Source: Pseudoflavonifractor sp. 524-17 (lineage in GTDB: Bacteria > Bacillota > Clostridia > Oscillospirales > Oscillospiraceae). From it: a stretch of 64,000 bases of DNA. Made by a program: the position numbers and the translations under genes. The stretch lies in assembly GCF_009935845.1 (NCBI RefSeq), contig NZ_QWEK01000006.1, forward strand, positions 62,001-126,000, in the 5' to 3' direction. The notes under the pieces were generated by a model. It was not told the origin of the DNA. It worked only from the letters and a program-made list of their open reading frames with translations, and ran no database searches. Shown here piece by piece: positions 20,923 through 40,470 of this stretch. The stretch's first letter is position 1, and every line of letters starts with the position of its first letter.

Positions 20923-21140
20923 GTCATCACACTCCTATAAGTAGATCGCGCACGAAAATAGGGACACTTAATTTTCACCGCCTAAATTATATACATCTTT
21001 TGTTGGTTCGTAAATCCTTCTGGGCGAGTTTGTCGAAAATTTCTGTTTCGAATAAATTTGATGAAAGTTTTTCGTCAAATTTGATATGTTTCACGATTTT
21101 AACATAGGGACAGTCCTAAGAGAAATAGAATGGTGAAAAA

Positions 21141-21155
21141 TGCGCATCATGCGCA
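21141..21155. promoter_or_regulatory. Palindrome before sigK
   Basis: TGCGCAT, C, ATGCGCA: a perfect 7-bp inverted repeat just upstream of the AAAGGAGGAG ribosome site of sigK. The rest of 20923-21140 is AT-rich with a direct repeat AAATTTGAT near 21055 and 21075. I could not fix a mother-cell promoter. Confidence 0.4.
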
Positions 21156-21178
21156 GCGGAAAAGGAGGAGATGTCAGA

Positions 21179-21610
21179 ATGCTTCCGGCATGGATTGCGC
21201 TGATGGTCAACAGCCTGTTCGTCACACTGCGGCTCTCGGGCGGAGAGAGCAGCTCCTTCCCACGGCCGCTGAAGGCGGAGGAGGAGCGGGACTGCCTGGA
21301 GCGGATGCTCCAGGGAGATATGGAGGCCCGAAATACCCTGATTGAACACAACCTGAGACTGGTGGCCCACATTGTAAAGAAGTATTATACACCCAACGGA
21401 GACCAGGACGATTTGATTTCCATTGGCACGATTGGCCTGATCAAGGGAATCACCACCTTCAAGCCGGGGAAAAATGTCCGTCTGGCGACCTATGCGAGCA
21501 GGTGCATTGAAAATGCAATCCTCTCGCAATGGCACACATCGGCACTCCATTCCCAAAAGAAACATCTCGGTGGCGTCCGTTGTTCTGCTTGGCCTGCGGT
21601 CTGTATATGA
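21179..21610 (+). CDS. sigK: sigK, 5' portion, interrupted by the skin-like element
   Basis: N-terminal part of the late mother-cell sigma factor. Codons 1-112 (21179-21514) are genuine sigma-K: a hydrophobic pro-sequence-like start (MLPAWIALMVNSLFVTL), SSFPRPLKAEEE, NTLIEHNLRLVAHIVKKYY, LISIGTIGLIKGITTF and ATYASRCIEN. From codon 113 the frame enters foreign DNA and stops at 21610 with 31 unrelated residues. ATG 21179 follows AAAGGAGGAG. Without excision it yields a sigma fragment with region 2 only. The matching 3' half starts at 40057. Confidence 0.93.
   Translation: MLPAWIALMVNSLFVTLRLSGGESSSFPRPLKAEEERDCLERMLQGDMEARNTLIEHNLRLVAHIVKKYYTPNGDQDDLISIGTIGLIKGITTFKPGKNVRLATYASRCIENAILSQWHTSALHSQKKHLGGVRCSAWPAVCI
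21505..21523 (+). other. attL of the sigK intervening element
   Basis: Left recombination site CATTGAAAATGCAATCCTC within sigK codons Ile-Glu-Asn. It shares AAATG (21511-21515) with attR at 40053-40057. Host sequence lies left of the core, element sequence right of it. Confidence 0.85.
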
Positions 21611-21708
21611 TGTGCCGCCGTACCATCAGCAACGGGATTGCTGTCGGGCTGCTCTATATCCATAGCTTCCGGCCCCTTCTGGCTCACACCTTTGCCGAAA
21701 CGGAACGG

Positions 21709-22116
21709 ATGGTGCAGACTACCCCGGGAGCCCTTACAACCATAGCGGACAAGCTGCGATATTACCGTCATGTACATGGACTGGAACAACAGGAAGTCGC
21801 CGTTTATGTCAGCTTACACAGAGGAACATACGCTGGCTATGAGACACCAGGAGCCAGGGATTACTACCCCTTGGACAAGCTCTCCGCCCTGGCAGAACTG
21901 TTCAATGTCCCCCTGGAGTATCTTCTGGACGATTACAACGCCTTCCTCTACAAGGGCCAGGGACGGCAGGTCCAGAGACTTCGGGAGAGCATGGGACTTT
22001 CCAGGAGAGAATTTGCGGACAGGTTTGGGATTTGGCCGTCTACTGTCCGGGACTGGGAGACGGATTCTATCCGTATGACCAAGCAGACATGGGAGAAGCT
22101 ATTCAAATCGCAGTAA
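21709..22116 (+). CDS. XRE-like regulator with two helix-turn-helix units, next to attL
   Basis: Taken from the ATG at 21709 this is 135 residues. The first HTH is IADKLRYYRHVHGLEQQEVA to HRGTYAGYE; the second is RLRESMGLSRREFADRFG to STVRDWE. The frame is open without a stop back to the element boundary at 21517, and an in-frame ATG also occurs at 21529. No good ribosome site marks a start. It is co-oriented with sigK and no terminator separates them, so sigK transcription could reach it. In the excised circle the recombinase frame runs into it. Role may be control of element genes or excision. Confidence 0.65.
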   Translation: MVQTTPGALTTIADKLRYYRHVHGLEQQEVAVYVSLHRGTYAGYETPGARDYYPLDKLSALAELFNVPLEYLLDDYNAFLYKGQGRQVQRLRESMGLSRREFADRFGIWPSTVRDWETDSIRMTKQTWEKLFKSQ

Positions 22117-31894: not shown

Positions 31895-32253
31895 CAATGC
31901 CGCCAACGGCGGGAAACTATCCCAAACAAGAGGCCAATGCCGCCAACGGCGGGAAACTATCCCAAACAAGAGGCCAATGCCGCCAACGGCGGGAAACTAT
32001 CCCAAGCAAGAGGCCAATGCCGCCAACGGCGGGAAACTATCCCAAGCAAGAGGCCAATGCCGCCAGCTGCGGGAAACTACCCCATCGAGGGGCCAATGCC
32101 GCCAACGGCGGGAAACTATCCCAAGCAAGAGGCCAATGCCGCCAACGGCGGGAAACTATCCCAAGCAAGAGGCCAATGCCGCCAGTGGCGGGAAACTACC
32201 CCATCAAGGGGCTAATGCCGCCAACGGCGAGGAACTACCCCAAGACTGGCGAG
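31895..32253 (+). repeat. Nine-unit tandem array of a 39-40 bp hairpin-forming repeat
   Basis: Unit starts at 31895, 31935, 31975, 32015, 32055, 32094, 32134, 32174 and 32213. Each carries CAATGCCGCCAACGGCGGGA (with internal stem CCGCC-AAC-GGCGG) followed by AACTATCCC or AACTACCCC and a short variable spacer (AAACAAGAGGC, ATCGAGGGGC, ATCAAGGGGC). Framed by two near-identical segments AACTACCCCGATACTGGCGA (31808) and AACTACCCCAAGACTGGCGA (32233). All three frames are open by chance of composition; I do not call a protein. Confidence 0.85.
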
Positions 32254-35349: not shown

Positions 35350-35540
35350 TCTCAATCGAGCATCCGCAACAATACTATTCTTTGTAAAACAGTGGGAAAA
35401 TTGGGATTTCAATCCCCATCGAGCACCTGTAATAATACTGCTCTTTGTAAAAACAGTGGGAAATTGGGATTTTACTCCCCTCCAAGCACCTGCAATAATA
35501 CTGCTCTTTGTAAAAACAGTGGGAAATTGGGATACTATAC
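35350..35540 (+). repeat. Three tandem 63-bp repeats
   Basis: AATACTATTCTTTGTAAAAC (35371), AATACTGCTCTTTGTAAAAA (35434) and the same again (35497), each followed by CAGTGGGAAATTGGGAT or a one-base variant. Exact 63-bp period. No unique spacers, so not CRISPR. Confidence 0.85.
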
Positions 35541-35667: not shown

Positions 35668-35725
35668 TTGACATTTCCCTTATTATCCGATATTATTTAA
35701 GGGAACCGAGCCGGAGGTAAGGGAA
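35668..35725 (+). promoter_or_regulatory. fic promoter with three TAAGGGAA operator-like sites
   Basis: TTGACA (35668-35673), 17-base spacer, TATTAT (35691-35696). TTCCCTTA (35675-35682) and TAAGGGAA (35698-35705) form a perfect inverted repeat around the -10 box. A third TAAGGGAA (35718-35725) covers the ribosome site and ends in the start codon. This layout suggests tight repression. Confidence 0.75.
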
Positions 35726-36771
35726 TGAAAATCTTTAACTACTCTATGATCCGAAGCCAGAAATGGGACTCTGACATTTTAGGCTTGATTGCCGCTATCT
35801 ACAAAGAGGCCGGAAAGCAGGAGCTATATTTGAAGCAGCGCCCGGATGAATTGGAAAAACTGGTTGAGATTGCTAAGATACAGAGCACAGAAGCCTCTAA
35901 CGCCATTGAGGGTATCGTTACTACCAGCACCCGCATCAAGCAGCTTGTGGAGGAAAAAACCACGCCCAGGAACAGAGATGAGCAGGAGATCGCGGGATAC
36001 CGTGATGTGCTGAATATCATCCATGAGAGCTTTGACACCATCCCGATTACGCAAAACTATATCCTACAACTCCACAAGATTTTATATAGCCACATGAACA
36101 ATCCAATGGCCGGGCGGACGAAGAACGTGCAGAATTACATTAGTGCAACCTACCCCGACGGTTATACAGAAACCCTGTTTACGCCCCTTGCGCCATTTGA
36201 AACACCTGAAGCATTGGACAAAATCTGCGAGGAATACAGCCGGGTCATTGGAAACATGGAACTGGAGCCTTTGATTGCAATCCCAATCTTTATTCATGAC
36301 TTTTTGTGTATCCACCCATTTAACGATGGGAACGGCAGGATGAGCAGGCTGCTTACAACGTTATTGCTATACCGAAGCGGCTTTTTTGTTGGAAAATATA
36401 TCTCGTTGGAGGCGAAAATCGCCAAAAATAAAGACCTGTATTATGACGCTTTGGCAAGGTCACAGGACGGCTGGTATGAGGGTACAGAAGACGCTGTCCC
36501 TTTCATCAAATATATTCTTGGAATAATCCTTTCCGCCTATAAGGATTTTGAGGATCGCTTTGCTCTTGTAGAGACAAAGCTGCCCGCAGTTGAAATCGTC
36601 AGGCAGGCAACGCTCCAAAAAATCGGACGGTTCACCAAGCAGGACATTCGAGAACTCTGCCCTTCTCTCAGTGTGAGTTCCATCGAGGGGGGCTTGCGTA
36701 AGCTGGTTGCATCCGGCGACTTAAAACGGGAAGGAAGCGGGAAAAAAACCTACTATGTCAGACTCAAGTAA
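35725..36771 (+). CDS. Fic-domain protein (AMPylase/toxin-type) with C-terminal winged helix
   Basis: The 348-residue protein has the Fic core motif HPFNDGNGRMSR at about residues 198-209, intact for AMP transfer from ATP. An N-terminal inhibitory helix contains S-x-x-x-E-G (SNAIEG, residue about 59), making it a self-inhibited class II Fic. A C-terminal winged-helix segment follows (FTKQDIRELCPSLSVSSIEG, GLRKLVASGDLKREG), which may bind the TAAGGGAA sites of its own promoter. Targets unknown. Starts with ATG 35725 after CCGGAGGTAAGGG. Confidence 0.9.
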   Translation: MKIFNYSMIRSQKWDSDILGLIAAIYKEAGKQELYLKQRPDELEKLVEIAKIQSTEASNAIEGIVTTSTRIKQLVEEKTTPRNRDEQEIAGYRDVLNIIHESFDTIPITQNYILQLHKILYSHMNNPMAGRTKNVQNYISATYPDGYTETLFTPLAPFETPEALDKICEEYSRVIGNMELEPLIAIPIFIHDFLCIHPFNDGNGRMSRLLTTLLLYRSGFFVGKYISLEAKIAKNKDLYYDALARSQDGWYEGTEDAVPFIKYILGIILSAYKDFEDRFALVETKLPAVEIVRQATLQKIGRFTKQDIRELCPSLSVSSIEGGLRKLVASGDLKREGSGKKTYYVRLK

Positions 36772-36783
36772 TTTCTGAACGCT

Positions 36784-36812
36784 TTGTAACACATTGGGTG
36801 AGGTGGTATAAT
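36784..36812 (+). promoter_or_regulatory. Promoter of the DUF4869-ATPase-recombinase operon
   Basis: TTGTAA (36784-36789), 17-base spacer, TATAAT (36807-36812). A sigma-A-like pattern rather than a mother-cell one. The transcript could continue through the recombinase into the sigK 3' half. Confidence 0.65.
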
Positions 36813-36854
36813 ACCATTGCACCTATGAGAATACTATCCAAGGGGTGAAAGGCG

Positions 36855-37313
36855 ATGCTGAATATCTATTTCGGAGAAATGCCTGAAAAGGATTTTCCCA
36901 ACTATATATATAATACCAGTGTATATTTTGACAACACATATCTGGATTCCTGGATCACAGATGAATTCTCGCAGAAAATGATAAAGGATATTGACAAGGC
37001 AGTCGTACTGAGCCCAAATGCCATTGATAGCAAGGCACTGGGCGTGATTCCAGTTAAGCAGCTCTCCGGTGGTGTGAAGACACTGCTGCTGCTGCTGCAT
37101 GATCCATCTAAAATTTTTAACGTGTCCACCTGCGGAGATAACTGCGCAAAGTGGGTGCTCAAAATAGCGGAAGCCACAGATCATGACATTACGATTAACC
37201 TCCGTCACTTGATGGACTTTGGCGAAAAGCCCTTCGAGTTTAGACTGGTTAATAACGGCATGATCGTCCATAATATGCAGGAATATGTGACTTCTGCCGG
37301 AATCTATTTATAA
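36855..37313 (+). CDS. DUF4869-like protein
   Basis: 152 residues: MLNIYFGEMPEKDFPNYIYN, FDNTYLDSWITDEFSQKMIK, VIPVKQLSGGVKTLLLLLHD, GDNCAKWVLKIAEATDHDIT and LVNNGMIVHNMQEYV. From memory this is the DUF4869 family, found beside a P-loop ATPase in gut Clostridia. Preceded by AAGGGGTGAAAGGCG. Twelve bases separate it from the ATPase gene, so they likely work as a pair. No known activity. Confidence 0.7.
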   Translation: MLNIYFGEMPEKDFPNYIYNTSVYFDNTYLDSWITDEFSQKMIKDIDKAVVLSPNAIDSKALGVIPVKQLSGGVKTLLLLLHDPSKIFNVSTCGDNCAKWVLKIAEATDHDITINLRHLMDFGEKPFEFRLVNNGMIVHNMQEYVTSAGIYL

Positions 37314-37325
37314 GGCGGTGGGAAG

Positions 37326-38294
37326 ATGACAGGAAAATATGATATTGTGGTACAAAACCGCCGCCTGCAGTATAAATTTACCGTTGAACGAAACATTACA
37401 GTTTTGCGCGGCGACAGCGCAACAGGGAAGACGACTCTGATCGATATGATCGCTGCCTACCAGCAGAATGGCAAGGACAGCGGCATTACGGTTTCCTGCG
37501 AAAAGACTTGTACCACCCTGACGGGTCTGCGCTGGCAGGAAAATCTGGCACTGATCCATGACAGCATCGTTTTTATTGATGAGGGTGATAAATTCGTTCT
37601 CTCCGAGGACTTTGCCAAGGCTGTCAAAAATTCAGATAACTATTATGTGATCGCTACCCGTGCCCCCTTGACGAACCTGCCCTACAGCGTGGACGAGATA
37701 TATGGGATCAAAAATAGCGCAGGAAATCGTTATCAGGGAACAAAACGGCTGTACTCTAAGTTCTATAACTTATGTGATACCAAAGTGGACTCAATTTCCA
37801 AGCCGGATCTGGTGATTGTTGAGGACTCCAACGCAGGACATCAATTCTTCGCCAAACTTTTTTTCCAGTATAAAATCCCCTGTATATCAGCAAAAGGTAA
37901 AAGCAACGTCTATCAGGAACTTTTGCAGCAGACCTACTCAACAGCCCTTGTAATCGCAGATGGTGCCGCATTTGGCCCTGAAATTGAGAAGGTTCTGTCT
38001 CTGAATAAACTCCAGGATAAAAAGCTGATAATCTATTTGCCAGAGTCCTTCGAGTGGATGATACTGAAGTCAGGGCTTCTGAAACAAGGACGGATACAAG
38101 CAATACTCGAGAAGCCTTATGACCATATTGAGAGTGAAAAGTTTTTTAGCTGGGAGCGCTTTTTCACCTCACTGCTGGTTGATGAGACAAGCGGTACATA
38201 TCTGCAATATAATAAGACCTCTCTAAACCATGCTTATTTGAATCCAAAAGAGCAGGCTGCTATCGTTAGTATGATGCCTGAGATGCTATTCTAA
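37326..38294 (+). CDS. P-loop ATPase, partner of DUF4869
   Basis: The 322-residue protein has Walker A GDSATGKTT (residues 29-37), Walker B-like IVFIDEGDKF (about 81-90) and a possible sensor segment NYYVIATRAPLTN. The C-terminal half (KPDLVIVEDSNAGHQFF, STALVIADGAAFGPEIEKVL) has a second Rossmann-like part. It begins after GGCGGTGGGAAG. The recombinase gene begins 24 bases after its stop, so the three genes form one operon. It may help the recombinase or be independent cargo. Confidence 0.7.
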   Translation: MTGKYDIVVQNRRLQYKFTVERNITVLRGDSATGKTTLIDMIAAYQQNGKDSGITVSCEKTCTTLTGLRWQENLALIHDSIVFIDEGDKFVLSEDFAKAVKNSDNYYVIATRAPLTNLPYSVDEIYGIKNSAGNRYQGTKRLYSKFYNLCDTKVDSISKPDLVIVEDSNAGHQFFAKLFFQYKIPCISAKGKSNVYQELLQQTYSTALVIADGAAFGPEIEKVLSLNKLQDKKLIIYLPESFEWMILKSGLLKQGRIQAILEKPYDHIESEKFFSWERFFTSLLVDETSGTYLQYNKTSLNHAYLNPKEQAAIVSMMPEMLF

Positions 38295-38318
38295 ATAGTG
38301 CAGAGAGAGGAAACAATT

Positions 38319-40058
38319 ATGAATATATCATCAGAACAACAGGTTTTTGCGATCTATTCCAGAAAATCAAAATTTACAGGTAAAGGTGAAAGCATCGAAA
38401 ACCAGATTGAGATGTGCCGCCAGTACATCTCCCGCTGCTTTGGGCAGGAACAGGCGGACAGCGCCTTGGTCTATGAGGACGAGGGCTTCTCCGGCGGCAG
38501 CACAAAGCGTCCCAACTTCCAACGGATGATGAAGGATGTACATAGCGGCAAGATTCAGACCATCGTATGCTACCGCCTGGACAGGCTCACCCGCAATACC
38601 AAGGACTGCTTTGAGTTCGTGGAGGAGCTGGAGCACTGCGGAGCGGCCTTCATCTCCATCAAGGAGAATTTCGACCTGACTACCCCCACCGGACGGCTCA
38701 TGTTTACCTTTGTTGCGGCCTTGGCCCAAATGGAGCGAGAAACCATTGCCGACCGCATCCGTGACAATCTTCAGGAGCTGGCCAAGACAGGCCGCTGGCT
38801 GGGCGGCAATACCCCTCTCGGCTACGAATCGGAGGGCACCGAATACTGCAAGGTGGATGGGAAAAAGCGCAAGACTTTCCACCTGAAGCTGATCCCAGAG
38901 GAAGCCCAGCTGGTGCAGATGATTTTCTCCAAGTTTTTAGAATTGAAGTCCTTAACGAAGCTGGAAACCTACCTGCTCAACCAGGATTACAAGACCCGCC
39001 AGGGAAAGCCTTTCTCCCGCTTTGCCATCCGGGAACTCATTATGAACCCCGTCTACGCAAAGGCAGACGGGGCTATGTACCAGTATTTGATTGCCAATGA
39101 AGTCCAACCCTTCTCCGATCAAAGTACCTTTGACGGGAGCCACGGCATCATGGCCTACAACCGCACGGAGCAAACCAAGGGCAGCACTACCCGAAAGAAG
39201 CCTATAGAAGAATGGGTGGTATCGGTAGGGGAGCATGAGGGCATCGTATCCGGCGAGGACTGGATCGCCGTCCAGGGACTGCTGGACGAAAACAAAAGCA
39301 AGAGCTATCGCTGGCGGGCGGGGCAGAGCAATGAGGCCCTGTTGTCGGGCCTTTTGCATTGCCGCTGCGGATACTGTATGCGGCCCAAGGTTACCAGCCG
39401 CACGACAGGTGACGGAGAGCGGCACTTCCGCTATTTGTGCGAGCTGAAGGAAAAGAGCCGCCGCCATAAATGCGATAACAAGGACATCAACGGCAACCAT
39501 CTTGATCGTGCGGTATGTTTTGAAATCAAGAGACTTGCAGAGGACAAAAGCGAACTTAACCGTCGCTTGGCGACAGGAAAAAAAGCCTTTGTGGACAAAA
39601 GCAACCAGCTCACAACAGACCTGGAACGGCTCAAAAAGGCCCAGAGAGAGAACCAGAGGGAGATCAGCGCACTGGTAGACTCCCTGGCGAAAATGACTAG
39701 TATCCCCGGAAAGCAGAGCATCCTGGACGGCATCAACGAGCGTTCCGAACGGAATAAGAGTATTCAGGAGAATATCCAGGAGCTGGAGCAGATCCTCCAA
39801 GAGCAGAACCTGCAATCCCAATCTTTTGAGATCCTGAGGGATATGCTGCGCTCTTTTGCGGCTACCATGGACGATATGACCGTGGAGCAAAAACGCCTGG
39901 CCATCCGGGTGATTGTCAAGGACGTCGTATGGGACGGGAAGAAAGTCCACATCTACCTCTTTGGCGACGATGACCCCAGCGGGGACGATATCGACTTCCC
40001 GCCACCTGACGATGGACAAGATAATCCTGATGGGCCACTGTGTGAGGATAGCAAATGA
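38319..40058 (+). CDS. Large serine recombinase of the sigK element (SpoIVCA-like)
   Basis: 579 residues: N-terminal resolvase domain with catalytic Ser14 (IYSRKSKFTGKGESIENQIE), DEGFSGGSTKRPNFQRM, VCYRLDRLTRNTKD and ALAQMERETIADRI. A Recombinase domain (PEEAQLVQMIFSKFLEL) and zinc ribbon CRCGYCMRP near residue 350 follow, then a long coiled coil at about 430-520. Predicted integrase/excisionase that restores sigK. ATG 38319 after AGAGAGGAAACAATT; a GTG at 38298 is less likely. Its TGA stop (40056-40058) overlaps the attR core, so recombination removes the stop codon. Confidence 0.95.
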   Translation: MNISSEQQVFAIYSRKSKFTGKGESIENQIEMCRQYISRCFGQEQADSALVYEDEGFSGGSTKRPNFQRMMKDVHSGKIQTIVCYRLDRLTRNTKDCFEFVEELEHCGAAFISIKENFDLTTPTGRLMFTFVAALAQMERETIADRIRDNLQELAKTGRWLGGNTPLGYESEGTEYCKVDGKKRKTFHLKLIPEEAQLVQMIFSKFLELKSLTKLETYLLNQDYKTRQGKPFSRFAIRELIMNPVYAKADGAMYQYLIANEVQPFSDQSTFDGSHGIMAYNRTEQTKGSTTRKKPIEEWVVSVGEHEGIVSGEDWIAVQGLLDENKSKSYRWRAGQSNEALLSGLLHCRCGYCMRPKVTSRTTGDGERHFRYLCELKEKSRRHKCDNKDINGNHLDRAVCFEIKRLAEDKSELNRRLATGKKAFVDKSNQLTTDLERLKKAQRENQREISALVDSLAKMTSIPGKQSILDGINERSERNKSIQENIQELEQILQEQNLQSQSFEILRDMLRSFAATMDDMTVEQKRLAIRVIVKDVVWDGKKVHIYLFGDDDPSGDDIDFPPPDDGQDNPDGPLCEDSK

Positions 40059-40068
40059 GATTTTGATG
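40044..40068 (+). other. attR of the sigK intervening element
   Basis: GAGGATAGCAAATGAGATTT followed by TGATG, with the shared core AAATG at 40053-40057. Left of it is the recombinase end, right of it sigK codons Glu-Ile-Leu-Met. Joined with attL on the element side it gives GAGGATAGCAA / ATGCAATCCTC, a palindrome except at the centre and one pair. Confidence 0.85.
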
Positions 40069-40470
40069 TACTTCCGGTCCATCAAAAAATTTCAGGGGGA
40101 CGTTTCACTCTCTGACTCGCTGGATGGGGATGGAGATGGGGGGTCCCTGTCCATTCTGGACACCATCCATGTGGATGACAACATGTTGGAGGAGCTGGAC
40201 ACCAGAGACTGCTGTGCCAAAGTACGTCAATGCGTGGGGCGATGCCTGGATGAGCGGGAGGCTATGGTAATATCTCTGCGCTATGGGCTGAATAATGACC
40301 AGCCTCTCACTCAGCGGGAGATCGCCGCTAAATGCGGAATTTCCCGGTCCTATGTATCCCGCCGCGCTTATTGTAAGCGGCGGGATACGGTTAGACCTTG
40401 TTTGAAAAATGTCAAAACAGCAGTTTTTCCGCCATACAGGGTAAAAAACTTGAAATATGCAACCTTATAA
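40057..40470 (+). CDS. sigK: sigK, 3' portion, interrupted gene
   Basis: No start codon of its own. In frame with codon 112 at 21514 it adds 137 residues, giving a 249-residue sigma-K. It covers the end of region 2 (EILMYFRSIKKFQGDVSLSD), LSILDTI, VGRCLDEREAMVISLRYGL and region 4.2 TQREIAAKCGISRSYVSR. After SYVSR the usual IEKKAL helix is missing. It is replaced by 35 unrelated residues encoded by an inverted duplication (40354-40388) and a repeat A copy. Function of the last helix is therefore doubtful. Confidence 0.88.
   Translation, partial: EILMYFRSIKKFQGDVSLSDSLDGDGDGGSLSILDTIHVDDNMLEELDTRDCCAKVRQCVGRCLDEREAMVISLRYGLNNDQPLTQREIAAKCGISRSYVSRRAYCKRRDTVRPCLKNVKTAVFPPYRVKNLKYATL
40354..40388. 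repeat. Inverted duplication inside the sigK 3' end
   Basis: GTATCCCGCCGC (40354-40365) and GCGGCGGGATAC (40377-40388) are perfect 12-bp arms. Counting GCTTA-TTG-TAAGC the hairpin is nearly closed. The right arm copies the codons for VSR in inverted sense, replacing the normal end of the recognition helix. Confidence 0.75.
40391..40420 (+). repeat. Dispersed repeat family A, copy 2
   Basis: TTAGACCTTGTTTGAAAAAT then GTCAA, matching 57784-57812 and the reverse of 18248-18277. It overlaps the aberrant 3' end of sigK. Confidence 0.55.

Follow-up and report, generated by a model that had tools for sequence, protein, structure and literature searches.

Skin-like elements in sigK with an attachment site predicted to lie inside a recombinase-HTH gene

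Introduction

The integrase of the Myxococcus phage Mx8 is a tyrosine recombinase. In mycobacteriophage BPs, the attachment site is said to be located in a gene, so that integration alters the encoded protein, which is reportedly the repressor. Integration-dependent immunity is described for this phage (PMC4557955). For Mx8, a review describes an attP within the int coding sequence, with integration giving int a new 3′ end, and reports that int shows a changed specificity but no loss of activity after integration (PMC6070905).

The skin elements of Clostridium difficile and Bacillus subtilis are described as forming a circle with attP, and excision of skinCd is assigned to the recombinase CD1231, encoded by a coding fragment of 1518 bp, together with the recombination directionality factor (RDF) CD1234 (PMC5025042). 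Engineered fusion of a serine integrase to an RDF is described as shifting the direction of recombination (PMC5737554). How serine integrases stay in integration or excision mode is an open question of practical relevance.

The locus described here was found in a stretch of 64,000 nucleotides from Pseudoflavonifractor sp. 524-17 (contig NZ_QWEK01000006.1, positions 62,001 to 126,000 of the forward strand), in the following called the window, to which all coordinates refer. It carries a sigK-intervening element in which the recombinase gene ends in the attachment core. An earlier note on this DNA, made from the sequence alone, had proposed that excision removes the recombinase stop codon and fuses the frame to a protein with two helix-turn-helix (HTH) units.

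Results and Discussion

Structure of the element and its attachment sites

In the window, sigK is interrupted by a skin-like element of 18,542 bp that is bounded by two copies of AAATG (Table 1). Rejoining of the flanks in silico resulted in the sequence ...ASRCIEN-EILMYFRS... of SigK, and Pfam searches placed sigma-70 region 2 in the 5′ part and region 4 in the 3′ part of the gene. The element can be assigned to the sigK-intervening (skin) elements, as sigK is interrupted and precise excision, modeled by joining in silico, would restore the ORF. The recombinase is the last gene of the element and is a large serine recombinase of the phage integrase type, having the domains PF00239, PF07508 and PF13408 and a match to the phrog_95 integrase; an alternative start is possible at a GTG at position 38298.

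Table 1. Features of the sigK element in the window
Feature	Position	Strand	Evidence and remarks
sigK (gene of the sporulation sigma factor K), 5′ part; forms the upstream half of attB	21140..21513	+	Pfam Sigma70_r2, E 2.5e-15 on 21140-21607
attL core AAATG	21511..21515	+	Direct repeat with 40053-40057
Detached C-terminal tail of the recombinase (predicted)	21514..22116	+	From the core on, recombinase frame remains open over 200 codons up to a stop
Tail linker, 77 codons	21514..21744	+	Conserved Trp, YIHSF-type motif (alignments; open-frame test)
First HTH of the tail	21751..21939	+	Pfam HTH_19, E 1.8e-6; residues 75-137 (ORF starting at 21529)
Second HTH of the tail	21973..22101	+	Pfam HTH_3, E 3.3e-12; best stretch at residues 149-191 (ORF starting at 21529)
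Large serine recombinase, integrated (short) form, 579 aa	38319..40058	+	Pfam Resolvase, Recombinase, Zn_ribbon_recom; phrog_95 integrase, E 2.3e-116
P arm of attP (TGTGAGGATAGC)	40041..40052	+	Codes for recombinase residues CEDS directly 5′ of the core
attR core AAATG	40053..40057	+	Direct repeat with 21511-21515
TGA stop of the recombinase	40056..40058	+	Host sigK sequence (aaTGAg) if exchange occurs at AA
3′ part of sigK	40057..40470	+	Pfam Sigma70_r4, E 7.3e-11; unusual C-terminus after ...SRSYVSR

The TGA of the recombinase lies in the attR core exactly as the earlier note had placed it. Joining of the element ends in silico also reproduced the predicted fusion to the codon: at the circle junction (GAT AGC AAA TGC AAT CCT CTC GCA ATG) the TGA is turned into TGC, and a stop-free frame of 779 codons (579 + 5 + 195) runs through the end of the two-HTH ORF at 22116.

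The two cores are identical over 5 bp, and any crossover inside AAATG therefore yields one and the same product. The arms of related elements form an inverted repeat, GAGGATAGC / GCTATCCTC, around AAAT, and left and right arms taken together read TGTGAGGATAGC-AAAT-GCTATCCTCACA; in many relatives the recombinase reads ..EDSK or ..EDSE at the core. The left core is AAAA in place of AAAT in five elements (L116, L138, G632, G605, G475) and AAAC in G447, and the right core is GAAT in several elements, so that the bases common to all of them are the central AA. From these variants we infer that the DNA exchange takes place at the central AA of the core, which in attL would most likely be 21512-21513; in this case, the stop codon of the recombinase would consist entirely of host DNA. 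In the tail-bearing inverted elements G288 and G080, TT is found at the core centre, as expected if the central dinucleotide sets the orientation.

The two-HTH reading frame at the left end of the element, in the following called the tail, matched mostly families of HTH regulators, besides other generic HTH proteins. The HTH_19 match of its first unit reached 28.2 bits, slightly below the Pfam cut-off of 30.2. The structure predicted from an alignment of four sequences consists of strands followed by two HTH units, with a confident HTH half and low confidence for the linker, and a Foldseek search with this model gave no match at E <= 0.001, returning generic HTH hits and a few others.

Further observations were made on the gene and on the cargo of the element. 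After ...GISRSYVSR, the 3′ end of sigK (40351-40470) reads RAYCKRRDT..., where relatives have IEKRALEKL..., and this divergence is located at a palindromic stretch (about 40359-40395); due to this replacement, a rebuilt SigK would have an altered C-terminus. A replacement of the same kind occurs in G078 (L010) and not in the other seven of the eight relatives compared. Two tandem arrays are located inside the element, one with a 40-bp unit in 8.8 copies (31895-32244) and one with a 63-bp unit in 2.8 copies (35355-35533). The region directly 5′ of the recombinase (35725-38294) encodes a Fic protein, a DUF4869 protein and a product that weakly matches AAA ATPases; as a guess, these could be defence or toxin-antitoxin cargo.

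End of the recombinase frame in related elements

Named genomes were scanned with the recombinase alignment and the best 80 of at least 492 confirmed loci were analyzed. The relatives are mostly draft or metagenome assemblies, and in several of them the two arms are located on different contigs. A sigK junction was detected in 75 of these best 80 named relatives, and none was seen at the other five loci. In 69 of the 75 relatives with a sigK junction (among the best 80 of 492), the element provides no stop for the recombinase ahead of the core: 52 end on the host TGA in the core, 14 have a host CGA at this place (sigK AAC-GAG), so that the recombinase continues into sigK, and three are inverted, likewise with no stop ahead of the core. 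The exceptions are three elements in which a stop of the element precedes the core (L080, L130, L156) and three that are out of phase (L089, L098, L119). The earlier note had suggested that the stop-in-core layout be looked for in relatives and had named a stop well inside the element as the finding that would speak against it; the former was found in the 52 relatives ending on the host TGA, and the latter fails to appear in the 69 (both of 75, among the best 80 of 492). In a set of 33 loci that overlaps with the 75 relatives, the recombinase frame enters the core in phase without exception (28 tail-bearing and five tail-less loci).

Other arrangements in the same gene were observed as well. 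At L012, L017, L090, L125 and L147, a recombinase of the same type is present in sigK in inverted orientation, and its frame runs out antisense to the 5′ half of sigK. At L053 and L052 (G112:C1 and G091:C29), an interval of about 8-11 kb in turn divides the 5′ half of sigK near query residue 60, which suggests two different insertions in one gene.

Occurrence and conservation of the HTH tail

The two-HTH protein was searched for in 300 family genomes, 394 order genomes, viral contigs and the named loci, resulting in 37 tail loci after L246 (the same stretch as L245), L149 (the same tail as G606) and 14 weaker two-HTH matches (L071, L072, L076, L266-L273, L275-L277) had been excluded. L149, from Acutalibacter sp. 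1XD8-33, has its two ends on a single contig, and its tail is truncated at the end. A sigK junction is touched by 33 of the 37 (31 in normal and two in inverted orientation) and not by G086, G050, G538 and L245. In 31 of the 33 sigK-touching tails, both orientations included, the HTH part lies in the recombinase frame across attP, for which 1 in 3 would be expected; in G248 it is out of frame and in G585 the frame is broken inside. The tail of G209 stops early at codon 147 and that of vL247 runs off the contig, and 29 of the 33 are both in frame and open over at least 168 codons. With this layout in 31 of 33 tail-bearing sigK elements, the view that excision changes the C-terminus of the recombinase by fusing a two-HTH frame to it, and its likeness to phage systems with attP in a gene, both put forward in the earlier note, are supported.

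The linkers of 30 tails contain no stop in the circle frame and 2-18 stops in the other two frames together. The absence of stops is partly by construction, as an open frame was part of the definition of a tail and G248, G209 and G112 had been dropped (G585 and vL247 are not included in the set, G538 and L245 are). Base shuffling gave, over 15 clusters with less than 60% identity, a summed log10 probability of -27 that the linker is open. This value is to be taken as a guide and not as a P value, since the tails were selected by their open frame and by similarity, and the clusters are not independent.

The linker Trp is invariant in 14 aligned tails and absent from the divergent G112 tail. Across 21 elements with both parts, a set that omits the inverted elements, G112, G209, G248 and G538, recombinase and tail identities are correlated (Mantel r 0.83, p 1e-4). 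The dN/dS ratio was computable for nine of 13 pairs in the HTH part (0.04-0.31) and for 12 of 13 pairs in the linker as a whole (0.11-0.62); for the first 35-46 linker codons it was 0.17-0.79, and once 2.0 on few changes, which amounts to weak protein constraint. In the same 35-46 codons, synonymous change is below that of the HTH part in all 13 pairs, and this low synonymous change near attP indicates that constraint at the DNA level contributes there.

Judged from one genome, the default view would be a neutral accident, with the stop falling in the core by chance and an ORF following by chance, and tail-less elements do tolerate a read-through of 0-86 codons. The in-phase and open-frame counts over divergent clusters and the joint divergence of recombinase and tail make an accident of this kind highly improbable; as far as sequence comparison goes, the recurrence of the layout in dozens of related bacteria suggests a real switch.

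Beyond the tails counted above, two-HTH ORFs of another family, which seem to lack a clear start codon, are located beside other genes (L266, L267, L269, L271, L287, L076, L071); in L267 and L287 the neighbour resembles what we take to be a split macrodomain gene. In G178 (L287), a distant two-HTH case for which both ends are available, attP is an inverted repeat and the frames of tail and recombinase are shifted by one base, for which reason the proposal of an attP within a gene is not extended to the weaker two-HTH matches. The viral contig L245 carries a tail of the sigK type next to what is presumably a fragment of a phage terminase gene, judging by resemblance, and the tail module may thus also be present at another target than sigK.

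Start codons of the tail in the integrated state

HTH regulators are common in such elements, and the tail could be an ordinary separate regulator gene that abuts attL and is translated from the sigK mRNA, the match in frame being a by-product. Start codons were tabulated for the integrated state, counting ATG, GTG and TTG only. The tail of the window has an ATG at codon 5, a possible host-side ATG or GTG is present at codon -4 in 10 of 28 tails, G373 and G154 have in-frame starts on the host side (codons -4 and -60), and six of 17 tails tabulated show some SD-preceded start if a looser SD motif is allowed, all of which would fit a separate gene. Against it, no start position is common to all 28 tails, and with the strict SD motif an SD-preceded in-frame start occurs in three of the 28, at codons 80, 83 and 21. 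L116 and G447, both with a stop just upstream, and G288 have no in-frame ATG, GTG or TTG before the conserved Trp. The recombinase frame in 31 of 33 tails, compared to 1 in 3 expected, also speaks against a separate gene, as does the order of the parts, which holds in the two inverted elements, where transcription of sigK would read the tail antisense. In 15 of 28 tails, that of the window among them, the frame is closed by a stop two codons 5′ of the core, and the integrated tail is out of frame with sigK.

Due to the lack of a common start position, the rarity of SD motifs and the three tails without a start before the Trp, the tail as an independent gene was rejected as the main reading and is considered unlikely. 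In the integrated state, the tail is probably not a gene of its own.

Transfer between hosts

Ten pairs of elements with close tails were compared, of which two involve G538, which has no sigK junction, leaving eight. In all eight pairs, identity is higher between the element ends than between the host sigK genes. For G099 and G511, which belong to different families, the first 600 nt of the tail-bearing end are 96% identical and the adjacent sigK 58%; over the same length, the values for element end and sigK are 89% and 55% for G214/G557, 92% and 61% for G377/G373, and 97% and 75% for G022/G246. Over up to 1,400 nt (in G099/G511 one locus comprises only 1,053 nt), two of the eight pairs stay at 94-95% and six drop to 60-74%. 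This drop beyond the ends makes the element interiors look mosaic, with ends that travel. Recombinase and tail travel together in G377/G373, G022/G246 and G632/L138, with protein identities of 95% for the recombinase and 92-94% for the tail. The near-identical ends in diverged sigK genes indicate that tail-bearing elements enter new hosts, across genera and families.

These data bear on the proposal of the earlier note that the fusion inactivates the recombinase and makes the switch one-way. According to this lock, the fused tail would inactivate or retarget the recombinase after excision, so that sigK is not interrupted again in the mother cell, to which a final excision would be well suited. 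A fusion of serine integrase and directionality factor is described as lowering attP x attB recombination (PMC5737554), in line with such a lock. However, the spread of tail-bearing ends between genera and families requires integration from a free form, and the incoming free form would encode the fusion, which argues against the fusion simply killing integration. In addition, tail-less relatives exist, and the tail matches generic HTH families, with nothing marking it as a directionality factor. The one-way switch was thus not supported, given tail-bearing ends that are 96% identical in sigK genes of 58% identity, and a lock appears improbable. On the sequence comparisons, the long form is probably compatible with integration, or used for it.

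Tail-less elements and searches for the free form

About 15 related sigK left arms lack the tail and stop after 0-86 codons, and the fusion is therefore not universal. In G132/L129, G029, G091, G106, L108, L123, L135 and L136, the left arm is closed by a stop after 17-86 codons, and the searches detected no homologue of the tail for any of them; G023 (56 codons) and G032 (73) also stop early, and a recombinase is not clearly present at their other end. Five left arms from Lacrimispora and Clostridium species (L106, L109, L120, L127, L130) start with GA, so that this codon would again read TGA in the circle. A single base in the core codon can thus keep the stop, which the tail-bearing group does not do.

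Neither an uninterrupted recombinase-HTH gene nor a free circle was found in 400 family genomes or in the viral contigs. A search for the attP pattern gave no hits in the viral contigs and, with at most one mismatch, five hits in the 400 family genomes, namely three attR junctions and two chance sites, and no circle. The G022 tail gave one weak hit against phage records, and the tail alignment detected four loci in viral contigs, with sigK upstream in L244 and L247 and not in L245 and L246.

Proposed two-state recombinase

Taken together, we regard it as probable that attP is located inside a recombinase-HTH gene which is split by integration and restored by joining of the ends, with the long form made in the free and the short form in the integrated state. 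One long gene would comprise the large serine recombinase and a tail of about 200 residues with a conserved linker and two HTH units. The sequences show that insertion into sigK splits this gene at the core and leaves the catalytic part intact. A host codon closes the recombinase, as AAT-GAG of sigK reads TGA one frame over, with a run-on in hosts with AAC-GAG. The tail is stranded at the opposite end of the element, where it lacks a conserved start and does not share the frame of sigK, and joining of the ends restores sigK and the long frame together. The free circle would make the long recombinase-HTH protein, and the integrated element the short one only, so that the enzyme would carry a physical mark of the state of its element. 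An enzyme that is long when free and short when integrated is the most economical reading of the sequences.

For the function of the two forms, we lean slightly towards a recombinase that, in a widespread group of sigK elements, has its HTH domain only in the free circle and whose state sets its activity, integrating or regulating when free and excising when integrated. The long form would act on arrival in a new cell or just after excision, either in the integration step or in the control of element genes. The short form, together with a separate directionality factor, would excise the element during sporulation.

If this holds true, evolution seems to have tied the domain composition of an enzyme to the integration state of its element, using a host codon as the stop, and the layout might supply natural self-switching integrases. 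Genome annotators should be aware that what looks like a left-end HTH "gene" in these elements is probably one part of a gene that has been split in two.

Comparison with known systems

No description of this layout was found in the literature searched, which consisted mostly of titles and abstract openings and does not prove that the layout is unpublished. The closest precedent is given by the phages Mx8 and Mx9 of Myxococcus, with attP inside the integrase gene as described in the review cited above (PMC6070905). Reading of both ends, with the circle predicted, places attP inside the coding frame here as well, with a changed 3′ end. The enzyme is not a tyrosine integrase of the Mx8 type but, according to Pfam, a large serine recombinase; moreover, a whole two-HTH module is removed, a host stop codon provides the new end, and the target is a sporulation gene that is rebuilt on excision. 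In mycobacteriophage BPs, the altered protein is reportedly the repressor, whereas here it is the recombinase.

With the skin elements of C. difficile and B. subtilis, the element shares the location in sigK, a large serine recombinase and the restoration of sigK by excision; unlike here, the description of those elements mentions neither an attP inside the recombinase gene nor an HTH tail (PMC5025042). The Alicyclobacillus phage MMB025 is likewise integrated in sigK and has an integrase of the SpoIVCA family beside the core, but its core TCTC is described as lying directly upstream of the integrase gene and not within it (PMC13141910). As in the integrase-RDF fusions, in which the extra domain is described as being able to steer direction (PMC5737554), an extra domain would be fused to an integrase; unlike in these laboratory constructs, the HTH tail is natural and would be attached only in the predicted free form. 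The sigK elements with serine recombinases would thus follow a logic like that of Mx8, to which the removal of a whole module and the use of a host codon as the stop would be new additions.
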